Positions 4,183 to 63,445 of a DNA stretch of 64,000 nucleotides are shown piece by piece. The stretch spans positions 45,585-109,584 of the forward strand of contig NZ_JAASHM010000002.1 in NCBI RefSeq assembly GCF_019734195.1, given 5' to 3'. The position numbers were made by a program, and so were the translations under genes. The notes under the pieces were generated by a model. It did not search any database. It saw only the letters and a program-made list of their open reading frames with translations, and was not told the origin of the DNA. The stretch is from Clostridium sp. K13. Lineage in GTDB: Bacteria > Bacillota > Clostridia > Clostridiales > Clostridiaceae. Every line of letters begins with the position of its first letter. Within the stretch, counting starts at the first letter, position 1.

Positions 4183-5541
4183 ATGGAATTAGATTTATTC
4201 GTAAAGAGTTTATTCAAGAAGGCAAAGGAAGCTGGATTTTCAGAATATGAAGTTTATTATGTTGATAGAGAAAGTTTAAGTATAAGTGTATATAAGAGTG
4301 AAGTAGAAAAATATAACGTTAATAATTCGGCTGGTTTATCTTTTAGAGGTAAGCTAGGAGATAAAATAGGATATTCTTATACGGAAATATTAGATGAAGA
4401 TGCTATAGAAATGCTTGTAAAAAAAGCTAAAGAAAATGTTTTAGCAATTGAAAATAATGATGTTCAATTTATTTATGATGGAGATAAAGAGTATAAGAAT
4501 ATTAATACCTATTATAAAGCTTTAGAGAATATTTCAGCTGATAAATTAATAAAGATTGCTTTAGATATGGAATCAGAGGCGAAGAAATACTGTGATAAAG
4601 TAGAAAGCTTTAGTGGATGTGCAGTATCTTATAGTTCTGGAAAATATGGAATAATAAATTCTAAGGGATTAAATTTACACAATAAATCAAATATATTAAC
4701 ATCATATGTTGTTCCAATTGTTAAAGATGGGGATAATATGTATGATGGCTTTGGATATGTTGTTGCAAAATCATTAGATGAGGTTAATCCATATGAAATT
4801 GCTAAAATGGGAGTAGATGAAGCTTTAAGTAAAATAGGAGGGAAATCAATACCATCAGGTAATTATAAAGTAATAATAAATAATGATGCAATGGTATCTC
4901 TTATTTCTACGTTTTCAGGTGTATTTAGTGGTGATGCAGTTCAAAAAGGATTAAGCCTTTTAAAAGGAAAAGAAGGAGAAGTTATTGCAGCGGATATAGT
5001 TAACTTAGTAGATAATCCACACTTAGAGAATGGATTAGCATCAGTTGGATTTGATGATGAAGGAGTAGCTACAACTAAAACATATTTAATAAAAGATGGA
5101 AAGTTAGAAAGCTTACTTCATAATTTAAAGACTTCTAATAAAGCTGGGGTTAAATCTACAGGAAATGGATTTAAATCTTCATATGCTTCACCTATTTCAG
5201 TATCACCAACAAACTTTTATATAGAACCTGGAACAAATTCATTAGAAGAAATTATCAAAAAAATAAATAAAGGGTTGATAATTACTGATTTTGCAGGTTT
5301 ACATTCAGGAGCAAACTCAATAACTGGAGATTTTTCTTTAGCAGCAAAAGGATTTTATATAGAAAATGGAACTAAAACTAAACCTGTAGAACAAATAACA
5401 GTAGCTGGAAATTTCTTTGCTTTATTAAAGGATGTTGAAGAAATAGGAAATGACTTAAAATTCCCTATGAGTAGTGTTGGTAGTCCAAGTATTTTAATAA
5501 AGGAACTTTCCATTGCTGGAGAGGGGTCAGATAATGAATAA
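4183..5541 (+). CDS. tldE: TldE/PmbA-family metalloprotease subunit
   Basis: This is the second subunit of the TldD/TldE protease, 452 residues. It resembles TldD in overall fold and C-terminal glycine-rich strands but lacks the HExxxH zinc motif, as is normal for TldE/PmbA, which shapes the chamber while TldD holds the metal. I chose the ATG at 4183 over the in-frame GTG at 4162 because AGGAGGGG (4171-4178) sits just upstream and the GTG overlaps tldD. Its 3' end overlaps the next gene by 8 bp, indicating translational coupling. Confidence 0.9.
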   Translation: MELDLFVKSLFKKAKEAGFSEYEVYYVDRESLSISVYKSEVEKYNVNNSAGLSFRGKLGDKIGYSYTEILDEDAIEMLVKKAKENVLAIENNDVQFIYDGDKEYKNINTYYKALENISADKLIKIALDMESEAKKYCDKVESFSGCAVSYSSGKYGIINSKGLNLHNKSNILTSYVVPIVKDGDNMYDGFGYVVAKSLDEVNPYEIAKMGVDEALSKIGGKSIPSGNYKVIINNDAMVSLISTFSGVFSGDAVQKGLSLLKGKEGEVIAADIVNLVDNPHLENGLASVGFDDEGVATTKTYLIKDGKLESLLHNLKTSNKAGVKSTGNGFKSSYASPISVSPTNFYIEPGTNSLEEIIKKINKGLIITDFAGLHSGANSITGDFSLAAKGFYIENGTKTKPVEQITVAGNFFALLKDVEEIGNDLKFPMSSVGSPSILIKELSIAGEGSDNE

Positions 5542-6466
5542 ATATGACTTAGTTATAATTGGATCAGGAGCTTCAGGACTTTCAGCTGGAGTTTCTGCTC
5601 TTAAATCTGGAGTTAAAAATGTTTTAATTTTAGAAAAAGAGGATTTATTAGGTGGGAATTTAAATTTATTTATAGATAATGGATTTGGGGAATATTATTT
5701 AAATAATGTTGTTACTGGTCCAGAGCTTGGTAGTATCTTGATAAAAGATTATAAAGAACTAGGTGGAGAATATAAAATAAATACTAGAGTTTTAGAAATA
5801 AATAGGGATAAGGTTATAACCTATGTTAATCCATTAGAAGGAATACAAGAAATATCCGCTAAATCTATAGTCTTAGCTGCAGGATGTAGGGAAAAATATA
5901 CAGGTAATATTATGATACCTATTAATAAATTTACAGGAGTATTTACTACAGGTTCAGCACATAGATTAGTTAATTACAGCGGATACTTACCAGGAAAAGA
6001 GATTATAATTATAGGAGATAATATTTGGACTCTTATTTTAGCAAGAAGGTTAGTAATTGAAGGTGCTAATGTAAAAGGCATAGTTACTGAAAGAAAGAGT
6101 TTTAATAGAGATGAACTAGATATTATTAACGGATTTAATATTCCTATAATTTATACAAGTGAAGTAATTGAAATTGAAGGTGAAGAAAGAGTAAATTTAG
6201 CTAGAATTAATAATGTTGAAACTGAAGAAATAACTTCTATTGAATGCGACTCATTAATATTATCTGTAGGATACTTACCAGATAATGACTTCATGAAAAA
6301 AATGAGCATAATAATGGATGGAGATATAGTTCGTAGTGAAAATAATCATACTTCTGTGGAAGGTGTATTTATAACAGGTACTATGGAAGGTGGAATAGAT
6401 TTACTTTTTAATAGTGGAGAAAATGGATTTAAGGTTGGAAAACAAGTAGCAGAATACTTGAAATAA
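5534..6466 (+). CDS. FAD/NAD(P)-dependent oxidoreductase
   Basis: The protein (310 residues) begins with a Rossmann dinucleotide-binding motif, GSGASGLSAG at about residues 10-19, followed by an acidic strand end (LILEKE) typical of FAD binding. A second nucleotide-binding region (IIIGDN, about residue 160) and the late motif (GVFITGT) fit the pyridine-nucleotide disulphide oxidoreductase/GlpB-like superfamily. No redox-active CxxC pair is evident, so a thioredoxin-reductase role is unlikely. It overlaps tldE by 8 bp and is probably in that operon. Its stop codon lies within the first bases of the downstream hairpin repeat (6463 onward), so that repeat may have set the C-terminus. The substrate is unknown. 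Confidence 0.8.
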   Translation: MNKYDLVIIGSGASGLSAGVSALKSGVKNVLILEKEDLLGGNLNLFIDNGFGEYYLNNVVTGPELGSILIKDYKELGGEYKINTRVLEINRDKVITYVNPLEGIQEISAKSIVLAAGCREKYTGNIMIPINKFTGVFTTGSAHRLVNYSGYLPGKEIIIIGDNIWTLILARRLVIEGANVKGIVTERKSFNRDELDIINGFNIPIIYTSEVIEIEGEERVNLARINNVETEEITSIECDSLILSVGYLPDNDFMKKMSIIMDGDIVRSENNHTSVEGVFITGTMEGGIDLLFNSGENGFKVGKQVAEYLK

Positions 6467-6606
6467 ATTGCGAAGCAATTTATTTAGTGAAGAGTGAAGA
6501 AGTAAGAGTGAAAAGTTAAGGAAATAATTCAGCTAAGCCGAATTAAAAAATATATATTTTAAGAAACTGCCATAGCAGTTTCAACCTTCACTCTTCACTC
6601 TTACCT
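6463..6606. repeat. Hairpin repeat element, copy A (divergent, with 7-nt tandem repeats)
   Basis: The first 26 bp (6463-6488) are identical to the left end of copy D at 57690, including the AAATTGCGAAGCAATTT hairpin. The rest differs: five 7-nt units of the GTGAAGA type run from 6487 to 6521, and the inverse units (CTTCACT) occur at the right end near 6586-6605, making a long imperfect inverted repeat. A small hairpin (GAAACTGC/GCAGTTTC) lies at 6563-6582. It sits between convergent genes and could also act as a terminator for both. It has no open reading frame. Confidence 0.8.
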
Positions 6607-33048: not shown

Positions 33049-34803
33049 ATGAGAAAATGTGATGTTGGGGGTCAAGCCATAATTGAGGGAGTTATGATGC
33101 GTGGATCTAAAGGATTAGCAACTGCAGTAAGAACTCCAAGTGGAAAAATAGAAGTTAAAGTAAAAAAGACAAAACCAATAACAAAGAAGTATAAGTTTTT
33201 AAATATTCCTATTATTAGAGGAGCTGCTATACTAGTAGATTCATTAATAGTTGGAATTAAAACATTAAATTATTCAGCTAGTTTTTTTGAAGAAGATGAG
33301 GAAGAATCAAAATTTGATATTTGGCTTAAAAAGAAATTAGGTGATAAGGGTGCTAATGATTTACTTGTTACAATAACAATGATGATATCACTTTTAGTTG
33401 CTGCAGGATTATTTCTAGGTATACCTACTGCTATTGCATCAGTATTTAAGAATGTTGGATTATCTCCAGTAGTATTAAATTTAATAGAAGCAGCTATAAG
33501 AATCGCAATATTAATATCGTATATGTACTTAATTAGTAAGTTAGATGATATATATAGGGTATTTCAATATCATGGAGCAGAACATAAAACTATATTTTGT
33601 TATGAGGCTGAAGAAAAATTAACAGTTGAGAATGTAAGAAAATTTGGAAGATTACATCCAAGATGTGGAACAAATTTCTTGTTTTTAACTATGTTTGTTA
33701 GTATTGCTTTATTTACTTTAACTGGTTGGGGTGGATTTTGGCAAAGACTTATATTAAGAATAGTATTAATGCCAATAGTAGCTGGAATTACTTATGAATT
33801 AATAAAATGGCTTGGAAGGACTGAAAGTAAATTGGGAAAAGTTATTGCATATCCAGGTTTAAAGTTACAAGAGCTAACTACTAAAGAACCTGATGATGAA
33901 CAATTAGAGGTTGCTATAAAATCTTTAATGGCAGCAGAAGGAATTGAATATAAGAAGACTATTGGGGAATTATTAATAGATGGAAATAAAATATTAAAAG
34001 AAGCTGATATAGAAACTTATATTTTAGATACTCAATTATTATTAGGAAAAGTTCTTGGAAAAGATAAACTTTACTTAATTATGAATAAAGAAGAGGAAGT
34101 TAGTAAGTTTAAAGAAAGAGAATTTTATAGATTAATAAATAAAAGAAAAGAAAAAATGCCTATTAAATATATATTGAAAATCGCTGAATTTATGGGGTTA
34201 GATTTTCATGTTGAAGAAGGTGTGCTTATTCCAAGAGGTGATACAGAAATATTAGTAGAAGAAACTCTTAAAATTATAGACAATGATAAAGAGTATAATA
34301 TTTGTGATTTATGTTGTGGAAGTGGAGCAATAGGTATATCTATAGCACATTTAAGAGAAAATACTAAGGTAGATTTAATTGATTACTATGATGTTCCAGA
34401 AAAGGTAACTAAGAGAAACATAACAAAGCACCATTTAGCTTCTAGAGCAACATTTATAAAAAGTGATTTATTAAATGAAGTTATAAATCAAGAAAAGAAG
34501 TATGATGTATTAGTTTCTAATCCACCATATATAAAGGAAGAAGTTATAGATACCTTAATGGATGATGTAAAAAAATATGAACCTCATACAGCTTTAAGTG
34601 GTGGAGATGATGGACTTTATTTTTATAAAAAAATAGTTGATGATAGTGATAAGATATTAAAAGAAAATGGTGTATTAGCCTTTGAGATTGGTCATGATCA
34701 AGGAAAAGAGGTTAGTGATTTAATGATTGAAAAGGGCTATAAAAATGTAAGAGTTGTTAAGGACTTAGCAGGACACGATAGAGTAGTCGTTGGAGAACTT
34801 TAG
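33049..34803 (+). CDS. prmC: Fusion of YqhQ-type DUF1385 membrane protein and PrmC methyltransferase
   Basis: The 584-residue protein joins two normally separate proteins. Residues 1 to about 300 are a DUF1385/YqhQ domain (VGGQAIIEGVMMRG start, at least three membrane segments, and the EHKTIFCYE and HPRCGTNF motifs that suggest metal binding). Residues from about 305 to the end are PrmC, the S-adenosylmethionine methyltransferase that modifies the GGQ glutamine of release factors, with the SAM loop CDLCCGSGAIG and the NPPY motif at Asn491. I see no stop, frameshift or internal ribosome site between the halves. Its substrate RF1 is encoded next (35201). The YqhQ function is unknown. Confidence 0.92.
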   Translation: MRKCDVGGQAIIEGVMMRGSKGLATAVRTPSGKIEVKVKKTKPITKKYKFLNIPIIRGAAILVDSLIVGIKTLNYSASFFEEDEEESKFDIWLKKKLGDKGANDLLVTITMMISLLVAAGLFLGIPTAIASVFKNVGLSPVVLNLIEAAIRIAILISYMYLISKLDDIYRVFQYHGAEHKTIFCYEAEEKLTVENVRKFGRLHPRCGTNFLFLTMFVSIALFTLTGWGGFWQRLILRIVLMPIVAGITYELIKWLGRTESKLGKVIAYPGLKLQELTTKEPDDEQLEVAIKSLMAAEGIEYKKTIGELLIDGNKILKEADIETYILDTQLLLGKVLGKDKLYLIMNKEEEVSKFKEREFYRLINKRKEKMPIKYILKIAEFMGLDFHVEEGVLIPRGDTEILVEETLKIIDNDKEYNICDLCCGSGAIGISIAHLRENTKVDLIDYYDVPEKVTKRNITKHHLASRATFIKSDLLNEVINQEKKYDVLVSNPPYIKEEVIDTLMDDVKKYEPHTALSGGDDGLYFYKKIVDDSDKILKENGVLAFEIGHDQGKEVSDLMIEKGYKNVRVVKDLAGHDRVVVGEL

Positions 34804-34805
34804 AA

Positions 34806-35110
34806 ATATAGTGCGAAGGAAAATAAAAATTAAGGGCCTAGCGGCCAAGTTAAATTTGTTAATATAGCTTACGCTCATTAACCATAGGTAAGGGTTTGCT
34901 AACGCAAACGTTAAAAAGTTAAGGAGGAAATTACTTCGTAATTTCTTTAAATATATATTTTAGAAACTTATTATGAAGTTTCCTCCTTAACTAGCCAAAA
35001 GGCTTTTAACGTTGGCGTAGCCAACTTTTACCTTTTTGAACTAGGGAGCGCTGTTCAAAAAACTTAACCAGCTGAAGGCCCTTAACTAAATAAATTGCTT
35101 CGCAATTTAT
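34806..35110. repeat. Hairpin repeat element, copy B (full length, inverse of copy D)
   Basis: This 305-bp element is the reverse complement of copy D at 57690-57995 with about 90% identity by eye. It is made of consecutive small hairpins: AAATTGC/GCAATTT, TTGAAC/GTTCAA, GTTGGC/GCCAAC, AGCC/GGCT, AAATTAC/GTAATTT and GTTTGC/GCAAAC, several with GAA or TTCG loops. The two ends form an imperfect inverted repeat of about 50 bp. It carries no open reading frame and occupies nearly all of the gap between prmC and prfA. Confidence 0.9.
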
Positions 35111-39237: not shown

Positions 39238-39383
39238 ATAAATTGTGAAGCAATTTATAGTTAAGGGCCTTCGGCCAGGTAAGTTTTTTTAACGGCGCTT
39301 CGCTAGTTCAAAAAGGTAAAAGGTGACTACGCCAACGGTAAAAGCCTTTCGGCTCTTAACTTTTATTTTCCTTCGCAATTTAT
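39238..39383. repeat. Hairpin repeat element, copy C (internal deletion)
   Basis: This 146-bp copy matches the left 115 bp or so of copy D, then jumps directly to its right 30 bp (CTTAACTTTTATTTTCCTTC followed by GCAATTTAT). The missing middle is about 160 bp. Its ends carry the inverted repeat ATAAATTG..CAATTTAT and its hairpins include GGCCTTCGGCC and AGCCTTTCGGCT. It fills the space between the upp terminator and the dCMP deaminase promoter region. Confidence 0.88.
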
Positions 39384-48723: not shown

Positions 48724-48907
48724 GAATATTATAAAGGATATAGTTAAATTTAAAATACTCTGTTGTATATAGACGAATATAGTTGATATTTATAAAAATT
48801 TAAGATGAAAGCGAACTATTCTAAGGGATCTATAATATATATATATTATAGTGTATAAAAAAAATAGTTTGGACAATAATTTTAGAGGAAGGGCAGGGGA
48901 TTACAAT

Positions 48908-56191: not shown

Positions 56192-56383
56192 TAGTTCTTA
56201 TCCAGAGAGGTGGAGGGATAAAGGCCCTGTGAAACCCTGCAACCTGTTTAGCAGTGATAAATGACAAATAACAAGTTAGTGAAAATTCCAAAGGAATTTT
56301 TACATATTTAACTTGTAACTTGAAACTTATAACTTGCGAAGCGTGGTGCAAATTCCTGCATAAATTATTTTTGCAAGATAAGA
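56192..56383 (+). promoter_or_regulatory. SAM-I (S-box) riboswitch aptamer with enlarged P3 arm
   Basis: The core shows the S-box consensus: CTTATCCAGAGAGGTGGAGG followed by GGCCCTGTGAAACCC and GCAACC, and later GGTGCAAATTCCTGC. P1 is TTCTTATC with GATAAGAA. The usual aptamer is about 105-120 nt; this one is about 190 nt because an extra segment of roughly 80 nt (about 56260-56342) sits where the P3 arm normally ends. That segment forms a long hairpin (56269-56289 with 56293-56317), carries four 7-nt TAACTTG-type repeats (56309-56336) and a GCGAAGC. SAM binding should shut off metK. Confidence 0.93.
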
Positions 56384-56401
56384 AAGACCTTAGATAATTA
56401 C

Positions 56402-56475: not shown

Positions 56476-57651
56476 ATGAGAAGATTATTTACTTCAGAAT
56501 CAGTAACAGAAGGGCATCCTGATAAAATATGTGACCAAATATCAGATGCAGTTTTAGACAATATACTAGAGAAAGATCCTATGGCAAGAGTTGCTTGCGA
56601 AACAGCAGTAACAACTGGAATGGTATTAGTAATGGGGGAAATATCAACATCTTGTTATGTAGATATTCCTAAAGTTGTTAGAAATACAATAAGAGAAATT
56701 GGATATGATAGAGCAAAGTATGGATTTGATTGCGATACATGTTCTGTATTAACATCTATTGATGAACAATCAAGTGATATCGCTATGGGTGTTGATGAAG
56801 CTTTAGAATCTAGATCTGGTGAAAAAGATGATGTTGAAGCTGTTGGAGCTGGGGATCAAGGTATGATGTTTGGTTTTGCTACTAATGAAACACCAGAATA
56901 TATGCCTTCACCAATTGCTATGGCGCATAGATTATCTAGAAGATTAACAGAAGTAAGAAAGAATGGAACATTACCTTACTTAAGACCAGATGGAAAGACT
57001 CAAGTAACGGTAGAATATGATGATAACAGAGTTGTTAGAATTGATGCTATAGTAATTTCTACTCAACATGATGATCATGTTAGCCAAGAGCAAATAAGAG
57101 AAGATTTAATGGAACATGTAATAAAGGCTGTTATTCCAGCTGAATTATTAGATGAGTCAACTAAATATTATATAAATCCAACAGGAAGATTTGTTGTTGG
57201 AGGACCACAAGGTGATAGTGGATTAACTGGTAGAAAGATTATAGTTGATACTTATGGAGGATATGGAAGACACGGTGGTGGTGCATTCTCAGGAAAAGAT
57301 CCAACAAAGGTAGATAGATCAGCAGCATATGCAGCAAGATGGGTTGCTAAAAACTTAGTTGCAGCAGGGGTTGCAGATAAGTTAGAAATACAATTAGCAT
57401 ATGCAATAGGTGTTGCAAAGCCAGTTTCTATTGAAGTAGAAACTTTTGGAACAGGTAAAATATCAGATCAAGAGATAACAAATATTGTTGAAAAGGTATT
57501 TGATTTAAGACCAGGAGCTATAATAAATAACCTTGAATTAAGAAGACCTTTATACAGACAAACAGCTGCTTATGGTCATTTTGGAAGAAATGATTTAAGC
57601 CTTCCATGGGAAGAATTAAATAAGGTAGAAGAAATTAAGAAATACTTATAA
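56476..57651 (+). CDS. metK: S-adenosylmethionine synthetase
   Basis: MetK makes SAM from methionine and ATP. The 391-residue protein has the ATP and methionine motifs in order: [34 protein letters not shown], the phosphate loop [22 protein letters not shown] and the C-terminal YGHFGR. Start ATG behind AAAGGAG. Expression is controlled by the SAM-I riboswitch directly upstream, a feedback loop. A terminator and repeat copy D follow. Confidence 0.98.
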
Positions 57652-57660
57652 TATGGAAAG

Positions 57661-57689
57661 CGAGATACAATTTTGTATCTCGTTTTTTT
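57661..57689 (+). terminator. Terminator of metK
   Basis: CGAGATACAA pairs with TTGTATCTCG, followed by seven T residues that abut repeat copy D. Confidence 0.9.
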
Positions 57690-57995
57690 ATAAATTGCGA
57701 AGCAATTTATTTAGTTAAGGGCCTTCAGCCGGTTAAGTTTTTTGAACAGCGCTCCGCTAGTTCAAATAGGTAAAAGTTGACTACGCCAATGGTAAAAGCC
57801 TTTTGGCTAGTTAAGGAGGAAACTTCATAAGAAGTTTCTAAAATATATATTTAAAGAAATTACGAAGTAATTTCCGCCTTAACTTTTTACCGTTTGCTTT
57901 AGCAAACCCTTACCTATAATTAATTGGCGCGAGCTATATTAATCACTTTACCTTAGCCGTTAGGCCCTTAACTTTTATTTTCCTTCGAAATTTAT
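57690..57995. repeat. Hairpin repeat element, copy D (full length)
   Basis: This 306-bp element is the reference copy: it matches copy B inverted (about 90%), copy C over both ends and copy A over the first 26 bp. From left to right it holds hairpins AAATTGC/GCAATTT, TTGAAC/GTTCAA, AGCC-TTTT-GGCT, AAACTT/AAGTTT, AAATTAC/GTAATTT and GTTTGC/GCAAAC, linked by GTTAAGG or GGTAAAAG units. The ends are an imperfect inverted repeat of about 50 bp. It fills the space between convergent metK and nagA and has no open reading frame. Confidence 0.9.
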
Positions 57996-61548: not shown

Positions 61549-62541
61549 ATGAATTATAAGGAATTGAGTAATATTTTTAAAAAAATAAATAAGTGGTATG
61601 GAAAAAAAACAAAAGTGTTATCTGTAAAAACAAGACCATTTAATACTATAGAGGTTTTTTCTAATATAATAAATAAGACTTTATACGAAAATAAAAATAT
61701 ATTATATGTTTTTTGTAGTGAAGAGAGGGATTATGTAAATGAAAAGAAAAGTAGTTTACGTGAATTGATTGATGAAGCTATAAGTGATAAACAAATAGAA
61801 AATAATTTACAATGTATAGTTATAAGTGAGATAAATAACATAGATATGTTATATGATTTAGTTATATTTGATGATATCACTTTATTTTCAAAGGTAAGTA
61901 ATGAGTATGTTAGAGAGGCTATAGAGAATATATATTGGAAGAGTAACAAAGTTATAATTTATTCTAGTGAATTTATTTTTCCTATAGGAGAAAAGATTGA
62001 AATTCCATATATGTTATCAGAAGAGCCAATGATAGAACCACGATTAATGAGCACAAGAATACGATTAGAAGAAAATATTCCGTTATCATTATTTGAATAT
62101 TTTAAATGGTTTAAGGAAAATAAAAGAATAGTATTGATTGTTGTACCGTCTGAAGAAAAATTAAATAAAGTTTATAATCACTATTATGAAGTTTTGAGGA
62201 AGTTAGGTATTAGGGTTGTTAGATATAATAAGAATCAAAATTTTAGTTTTGTAAAAGAAATAATGGATGGATATAGTGATTCATTATTTATAATTACTAA
62301 TAATTGTGGTCAATACATGAATAATATTCCCAATGTAAATATAATAGTATTATTTGCTGATGATATTTACTATTCCTATAAAAAGATAGTTTATATGTGT
62401 GGTTCAATTAATAGTATAAGTGAGATTCAATCAGAATTAATCCTTGTATCAAAAGAAATTTCAGAGGATATAGATAATGCAAAAAATATTACTAGAGAAT
62501 TTAATAAAGTATTATGGGAAAAACAATATTTAAGATCATAA
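61549..62541 (+). CDS. Degenerate ComFA-like helicase protein
   Basis: The 330-residue protein has the outline of ComFA, the ATPase of DNA uptake, but not its motifs. Its C-terminal half follows the helicase domain 2 pattern, including IPNVNIIVLFADD where ComFA has IPNVNV-V-LGADH, and the motif VI position reads YMCGSINS instead of a QIAGRVGR-type sequence. No Walker A P-loop is present and the Walker B-like site reads VIFDDI. Thus ATP hydrolysis is unlikely. It sits between recD2 and comFC, the place where comFA would be, and overlaps comFC. Confidence 0.65.
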   Translation: MNYKELSNIFKKINKWYGKKTKVLSVKTRPFNTIEVFSNIINKTLYENKNILYVFCSEERDYVNEKKSSLRELIDEAISDKQIENNLQCIVISEINNIDMLYDLVIFDDITLFSKVSNEYVREAIENIYWKSNKVIIYSSEFIFPIGEKIEIPYMLSEEPMIEPRLMSTRIRLEENIPLSLFEYFKWFKENKRIVLIVVPSEEKLNKVYNHYYEVLRKLGIRVVRYNKNQNFSFVKEIMDGYSDSLFIITNNCGQYMNNIPNVNIIVLFADDIYYSYKKIVYMCGSINSISEIQSELILVSKEISEDIDNAKNITREFNKVLWEKQYLRS

Positions 62542-63238: not shown

Positions 63239-63445
63239 TAAAGTTAGGTCTGTGGATGAAAGTCGATGCCAGTCGCAGGCAAAACGATCCACGTAAGTTA
63301 AACAAAGTTTTAATGAGCATGGTGCGGTATAGAGGTAAGTCCTGCCAGTAGAGATACTGAGAGTGTTAGTAGTGAGAGGTTAATTCCGGGTAGCAAAAGC
63401 TCCAGCAGGCGAGTGTGGGGTCAAAATCCAGGTCAGCTAACTTTA
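63239..63445 (+). ncRNA. raiA-motif structured RNA
   Basis: A GC-richer, clearly structured segment of about 205 nt lies between comFC and hpf (raiA). Its ends pair (AAAGTTAG with CTAACTTT), and internal segments such as GTGGAT/ATCCAC and the ATTCCGGGTAGCAAAAGCTC stretch look like a conserved RNA. This position directly upstream of hpf/raiA and downstream of comF is that of the raiA motif RNA described in Firmicutes and linked to sporulation and aggregation in clostridia. Recognition is by position and general look, not by a covariance search. Confidence 0.8.

Follow-up and report, generated by a model that had tools for sequence, protein, structure and literature searches.

Directly behind metK and its intrinsic terminator, the latter being host DNA outside the repeat, a 64,000-nucleotide stretch of the Clostridium sp. 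K13 genome (the window) carries a multi-hairpin repeat of about 300 bp (copy D), and this locus raises the question of whether such a repeat is a functional RNA, a palindrome that grows in place or a piece of mobile DNA. The first-pass annotation, made from the letters alone, had proposed a MITE-like, transposase-free element present in many copies, and this reading is borne out by dispersed copies, empty sites in sister species and inverted tips. We hold with reasonable confidence that the elements are non-autonomous, MITE-like mobile DNA of Clostridium with a branched hairpin shape, presumably moved in trans; they form a real set of structured elements across the genus, and these are probably mobile. 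Such elements stand behind genes in many Clostridium genomes, and most of the large length differences between the window and its closest relatives fall at intergenic sites of this kind.

Copies in the window and in the genome

Copies D and B are inverse copies of each other, 280 of 306 alignment columns being identical, in agreement with the roughly 90% that had been estimated by eye; a repeat search returned them as 241 nt at 90% and a further 69 nt at 97%. Copy D is itself a weak palindrome, its own inverse matching at 67% over 187-195 query bases, and the imperfect inverted repeat described for its 50-bp ends is recovered, with 37 of 54 columns matching over the outer ~50 bases and 12 of the 13 outermost bases. 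No ORF of 80 aa or more is listed within B or D. The hairpin AAATTGC-GAA-GCAATTT, which had been put forward as typical of the whole chain, is present at the left end but there only, the remaining hairpins being different; the apex hairpin of D, GAAATTACGAAGTAATTTC, is similar to it. Similarly, the proposed four copies in 64 kb include two full ones, B and D, whereas C is internally deleted and A has another interior, having in common with D some 30 bp at the end and the architecture of the apex (Table 1). An ORF at 5513-6466 terminates inside the tip of copy A.

Table 1. Elements of the window and their parts (window coordinates).
Feature	Position	Strand	Remarks
Copy D, full family-1 element	57690..57995	+	Based on sequence, 17 near-full genome copies, fold z, empty sister sites
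Left-end mini-hairpin ATAAATTGC-GAA-GCAATTTAT with tip	57690..57710	+	Also found solo and ending other interiors
Apex module of D, with closing stem	57809..57884	+	Based on sequence; partly source of model R1
Apex module of D, hairpin	57819-57838		
Apex module of D, A/T centre	57839-57855		
Apex module of D, hairpin	57856-57874		
Right tip of D	57983..57995	-	Reads ATAAATTTCGAAG inward; 12/13 bases equal to left tip
Intrinsic terminator 3' of metK (ORF 56476-57651)	57660..57689	+	-12.9 kcal/mol; host sequence
Copy B, full family-1 element, inverse of D	34806..35110	-	Between prmC and prfA (named by eye)
Copy C, family 1, large internal deletion (L021)	39238..39383	+	146 bp remaining
Copy A, family 2	6463..6605	+	Left end as family 1, other arms (GTGAAGAG), similar apex; right end uncertain by several bases
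Apex module of A	6514..6594	+	R1 match of 85.3 bits; R1 training sequence

An Rfam scan of the window at the gathering threshold gave 10 matches, none of them on A-D. A SAM riboswitch before metK (56195-56384) and a raiA RNA (63239-63445), both above the Rfam gathering score, are ordinary features. Beside copy B, a 584-aa ORF (33049-34803) appears, from names assigned by eye to its translation, to fuse PrmC to an N-terminal part that is DUF1385-like.

In the genome from which the window is taken (G000, a 4.02-Mb draft in 92 contigs), a BLAST search with D gave 57 matches, a figure that includes fragments and matches on both strands, and 17 near-full family-1 copies of about 305 bp, two of which (L009 and L017) have a deletion of ~35-40 bases; the high copy count per genome that had been predicted is therefore real. 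The copies are dispersed over unrelated loci. Pairwise identity among the 17 aligned copies is 74-96% (median 83%) and none are identical, so that no recent movement is visible for family 1. Shortened forms of ~215 bp (L010), 146 bp (L021) and less than 70 bp (L052, L059) also occur, as does the end hairpin by itself (L049, L050), and in one G000 copy (L018) the interior is turned relative to its own ends.

Fold, base-pair changes and position among genes

The two strands of D have folding energies of -105.1 and -108.0 kcal/mol (z -10.5 and -11.0), and on either strand none of 100 dinucleotide shuffles folded as well. GCGAAGC is known to form an unusually stable mini-hairpin in DNA. The RNAalifold consensus of the 17 copies comprises an outer stem, inner stems and seven hairpins, with 109 pairs in which 91.7% of 1821 cells are paired. 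Cells changed on both sides number 25, compared with 10.2 (sd 3.3) in shuffles, none of 500 being as high, and two further covariation measures were equalled by 11 and 35 of 500 shuffles; the counted structure is derived from the same 17-copy alignment on which it was tested. The covariation envisaged in the first-pass annotation, assessed here as this pair count, thus takes the form of a modest excess of double changes, but a control structure shifted by two columns gave 13 double-change pairs where the true structure gave 12. Covariation across the 17 copies is present, but modest.

The kinds of change are informative as to which molecule folds. Of the one-sided departures from the consensus Watson-Crick pairs, 42 types (52 cells) give G.T and 37 types (57 cells) give A.C, and compensatory change types number 10 in the short hairpins and 4 in the arms. 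Selection on the RNA of one strand should favour either G.T or A.C; as the two are about equal, RNA selection was rejected and a DNA-level or strand-neutral explanation is favoured. The suggestion that the modules act as folded RNA thus finds no support in the substitutions, which carry no RNA-strand signature, while the companion suggestion, that they act as folded DNA, is compatible with the data.

Gene context was counted for 30 elements (L001-L021, L049-L055, L057 and L059; L022-L029, L056 and L058 were left out), using ORFs called by script as genes. The flanking genes are convergent at 11 elements and tandem at 19, with none divergent and no element inside an ORF, compared with a split of 15 convergent, 70 tandem and 15 divergent among the gaps of 20 bp or more along 161 kb of the same contig (convergent excess, binomial P 0.003, Fisher 0.017; lack of divergent, 0.008). 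The 3' end of a gene is no more than 40 bp away for 26 of the 30, the exceptions being L012, L020, L049 and L059, and in 6 of 21 family-1 entries (L002, L003, L007, L013, L014, L018) a flanking ORF ends inside the element. In G000, D and C alone have a terminator of -5 kcal/mol or better at their left end (2/20), and no right end has one (0/20).

Tips, target sites and sister species

A common short tip, about NTAAATTGCGAA, ends at least three different interiors in G000, and the element ends read, from the outside inwards, roughly GAAYAMTTKAA-AT-AAATTGCGAA. The families that share this tip are family 1, with TTAAGGGCC arms, family 2, with GTGAAGAG arms (A, L055, L075 and L092), and family X, a group of long-hairpin elements in the same genome (L304, L305, L306, L303 and L026), some of them shortened or composite. 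Family X has inverted tips of 14-15 bp, starting with ATAAATTGCGAACTA and ending with a near-inverse of this start, and between its 356-bp copies, which stand at three loci, 338, 333 and 330 of 356 positions are the same (93-95%). This degree of agreement points to a fairly recent spread, and among the elements of G000 family X is a good candidate for the latest to have moved. The exact string TTGAAWWAAATTGCG occurs seven times in G000 and three times in a sister genome, G031, with 0 control matches in each; elsewhere among the 68 genomes of the genus five have one match each, against nine control matches in nine genomes, which places the string at chance level outside these two.

Across the 56 flanks of 28 elements, position -10 is T in 42 and -9 is T in 36, -6 is A in 49, -4 is T in 44 and -3 is A in 54, and the preference is seen at both element ends. 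A site-specific palindromic target was rejected, since flanks are as alike between elements as within them (6.96 and 6.93 matches, permutation P 0.58; 29 pairs, without L013, L016 and L020). Over 28 of these elements (without L075, whose right tip had been placed wrongly) and 648 length/offset combinations, no target duplication is detectable (best z 2.45); the comparison of filled and empty sites, from which the first-pass annotation had hoped to read such duplications, involves sister sites too diverged for single-base resolution. At site A, G000 and G062 have equal codons in front of the tip (GAATACTTGAA) despite their differing inserts, which suggests that TTGAA at this site is part of the target and not of the element; in G062 the reading frame continues beyond the tip.

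Judged by prfA, the genomes closest to G000 among the 68 are G062 (96%) and G031 (95%), both colinear with the window. Site D is filled in G000 and empty in both sisters, presence and absence being compared here between species. Two further G000 insertions, at 78.6k and 100.4k (window-continued coordinates), likewise correspond to empty sites in both, and a 71-bp hairpin insertion at about 145.87k (L281, G000:C12 about 191.46k) is absent from G031, the sole genome compared. Other junctions are occupied by something else. Sites A and B hold a different, X-like element in G062 (its kind judged by eye), while site B has a third kind in G031 (by eye) and small elements in G076 and G070, the cores of which are mutually inverted (by eye). 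Site C has an unrelated element of ~350 bp in G031, small apex elements in G076 and G070 and a short stretch only in G062. Another element stands at the L018 site in G031, and at the L305 site G000 and G031 both have elements, with different interiors. The presence of different elements at equal junctions implies that junctions are re-used, which could reflect either a preferred target or replacement in place.

Two neighbouring observations concern other repeats. The L281 insertion stands behind an apparent tRNA gene end and has the motif CTAAATC-AAGATTTAGAG in common with units found at the junction at window position 48850. At that junction, G062, G031, G076 and G070 have ~90-250 bp extra, missing from the window, and in G031 a 74-base unit with CTAAATCAAAGATTTAGAG stands in about three tandem copies.

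The apex across the genus, mobilisation and known systems

The apex module, composed of a hairpin, an A/T centre and a second hairpin, was modelled from 13 sequences of eight genomes (model R1; 11 of 14 hand-picked modules, with L042, L066 and L032 left out, together with those of A and D). At E 0.01, R1 matches are found in at least 47 of the 68 genus genomes; the training sequences match by construction, and match counts include both strands of near-palindromes, with up to 67 candidates scored per genome in the genus and up to 31 in the order-wide draw, and so are not element counts. In an order-wide draw at least 38 of 147 genomes have matches, at least 10 of these outside the genus; at least nine of the latter belong to the same family, and a single weak match (E 0.0025) lies further out. 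Where elements of other species were read, the arms are different, simple-repeat-like and largely complementary, e.g. CAATTGACAGTTGACAATG (L040) and GAATTAATGATGAATAATTAATG (L034). Some of the matches to D itself in relatives (e.g. L030, L035, L045 and L046) look as if they arose by chance within coding regions. In all, the 22-base end hairpin was found in 13 stretches, from C. tertium, C. sartagoforme, C. celatum, C. bovifaecis, a Clostridium MAG and one 'Patescibacteria' MAG, and the C. bovifaecis elements have GCGAAGC end hairpins with arms that are different again. One viral contig has the 21-base end hairpin with no surrounding element by eye; this contig and the 'Patescibacteria' MAG, in which the hairpin also lacks an element around it, indicate that a solo hairpin can arise by chance.

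A relative with this apex, and of more recent spread, is found in G080 as a 240-bp element in seven copies of 80-100% identity, four of which cover at least 228 of the 240 bases, with shorter and older copies besides. Its ends are unlike the G000 tip, eight right ends being intact, and a single enzyme therefore cannot account for the whole set. A terminator pointing at the element and directly adjoining it was found by script at L214, L216, L217, L219 and L220 and by eye beside L215 and L225, with none beside L218 (L218 and L220 have common left flanks and are thus incompletely independent); random positions in the G080 loci have a terminator in 89 of 3600 cases. Since terminators stand beside most G080 copies but at only 2 of 20 in G000, the target habits of the two differ.

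Searches for Y1 transposases and reverse transcriptases, together with the loci read, revealed no mobilising enzyme or autonomous partner, and no autonomous parent with matching ends was seen among those loci. A reverse transcriptase was rejected as mobiliser, being present in 23 of 33 apex-rich and 22 of 35 apex-poor genomes (P 0.61, no association), as was carriage by plasmids or phages, the plasmid and phage collections giving no match at E 1e-5. Y1 matches occur in 25 of the 33 genomes with at least five apex matches compared with 18 of the 35 with fewer (P = 0.047), a weak association with clear exceptions, and a Y1 or RAYT protein was rejected on these grounds. G000 has four Y1_Tnp loci, none of which (0/4) has the family-1 end hairpin on both sides. 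At one, L070 (G000:C34, match 65408-65743), a 312-aa Y1 transposase-like ORF, which from its size we take to be RAYT-like, is flanked on either side by TTTTTCCCCTGAGGC repeats in inverted orientation, with another TTTTTCCCCTGAGGC copy downstream, and resembles a separate small REP/REPIN system. Another, L069 (G000:C34, match 61957-62313), is an interrupted IS200-like tnpA that runs on its 3' side into AAATAAATTGCTTCG; the partial likeness of this sequence to the element tip, on one side, could be due to chance, nesting or common origin.

On the mobile-DNA reading, both ends of an element would carry a tip of about ATAAATTGCGAA, and between them would lie complementary arms, bearing side hairpins, and a two-hairpin apex with an A/T centre. 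An enzyme supplied in trans would recognise the tip, or the tip and the end hairpin, and would weakly favour insertion at sites resembling GAAYAMTTKAA, often in the final codons of a gene or past a terminator. Insertion might do little harm, as the TAA of the tip can close a reading frame, and because the interior seems to need its fold more than its sequence, arms could drift or be exchanged while fold and tip stay. Copies would then shrink through internal deletion, down to a solo end hairpin, and no host function need be assumed. A wider reading, which we put forward tentatively, is that a class of mobile DNA is set by shape over sequence: the branched Clostridiaceae fold, with its tip, complementary arms of any sequence, two-hairpin apex and AAATATATATTT-like centre, would be the substrate of the enzyme, interiors being replaced and junctions re-occupied.

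Of the alternatives, the one that assigns the elements a cellular role takes them for a functional RNA or terminator, a hairpin tree kept to end or protect transcripts at gene 3' ends, perhaps bidirectionally, as in bidirectional terminators or BIMEs. Both strands fold strongly, 26 of 30 elements are no more than 40 bp from where a gene ends, 11 of 30 stand between convergent genes, and the paired cells (91.7%) and double changes (25 versus 10.2, 0/500 shuffles) fit a kept structure. That structure, however, was taken from the same alignment and fares no better than one slid control (12 versus 13 double-change pairs), G.T and A.C departures are equally frequent, the sites are empty or otherwise occupied in close relatives and D already lies behind a strong terminator, all of which makes this role unlikely. 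Immobile palindromes, growing and shrinking in place at gene ends via template switching on hairpins and homogenised by recombination inside each genome, would explain the size series from ~305 bp to a solo hairpin, the simple-repeat-like arms of other species, the occupation of the same junctions in sister species, the turned interior of L018 and the site-B core inverted between G076 and G070 (by eye). They sit poorly with long, closely similar and sharp-ended copies at unrelated loci, chiefly those of family X and the G080 element, and with the absence of D and two other insertions from both sisters, and we consider them quite improbable.

A different mode of movement, that of REPINs or IS200-type elements, would have a Y1 transposase or RAYT-like protein move single-stranded DNA bounded by REP-like end hairpins. 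The terminal hairpin, the solo hairpins and paired-end forms, the lack of a target duplication, the four Y1_Tnp loci and the weak genus-wide association (P = 0.047) all accord with it. IS200/IS605 targets are one-sided, whereas the site preference here is seen at both ends; moreover, the 312-aa Y1 gene is flanked by its own repeat, and G076 and G064 are rich in apex matches (at least 57 and at least 34, respectively) with no Y1 match, so that this mechanism appears very doubtful. R1, the tip and family X offer handles in the search for the enzyme.

REP/REPIN sequences with their RAYT proteins are likewise palindromic end units with solo and paired forms, but the sole RAYT-like gene with visible flanking repeats, L070, has a different repeat. 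The G080 relative is like group IIC introns in adjoining intrinsic terminators in one orientation; unlike these introns, the elements are only 240-305 bp long and show no association with reverse transcriptases, and the window scan at the Rfam gathering threshold gave no group II intron match at A-D. As regards named families, the sequences match none in Rfam (gathering threshold) or in the plasmid and phage collections (E 1e-5), and the copies are many, with kept hairpins, contrary to the two outcomes that the first-pass annotation had named as fatal to its proposal. In the titles and abstract openings covered, a literature with subscription papers mostly outside its scope, the family is nowhere named in Clostridium.

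Among structured repeats described in this genus, the stem-loop families Clop-1 of C. perfringens (93 bp, 44 copies) and Clot-1 of C. tetani (74 bp, 19 copies) are by description the closest relatives in print; they are likewise intergenic and repeated and, as far as their published descriptions allow comparison, much shorter than 305 bp (PMC2267715). BOX, RUP and the terminator-like SPRITE of Streptococcus pneumoniae are, by description, similarly small structured intergenic repeats that form clusters and nest, in another genus (PMC10969869). Bacterial MITEs are short and non-coding, with inverted tips, many intergenic copies and no transposase (PMC10969869), and the elements are like them in size class, inverted tips, non-coding nature, copy number and the lack of a transposase inside. 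They differ from MITEs in that no target duplication was detected and no autonomous parent was seen among the loci read, in their interiors, which are exchangeable behind one tip, and in a strongly branched fold kept genus-wide. MITE-like is nonetheless the best class for them, inverted tips, non-coding sequence, dispersed copies and empty sites all being present. Constant tip, exchangeable interior, kept fold and re-used junctions together make it testable whether bacterial transposition reads DNA shape. The families are thus new and their MITE-like kind is known, the nearest published repeats having been compared by description, and it is the mix of a constant tip, an exchangeable interior and a kept fold that is unusual.
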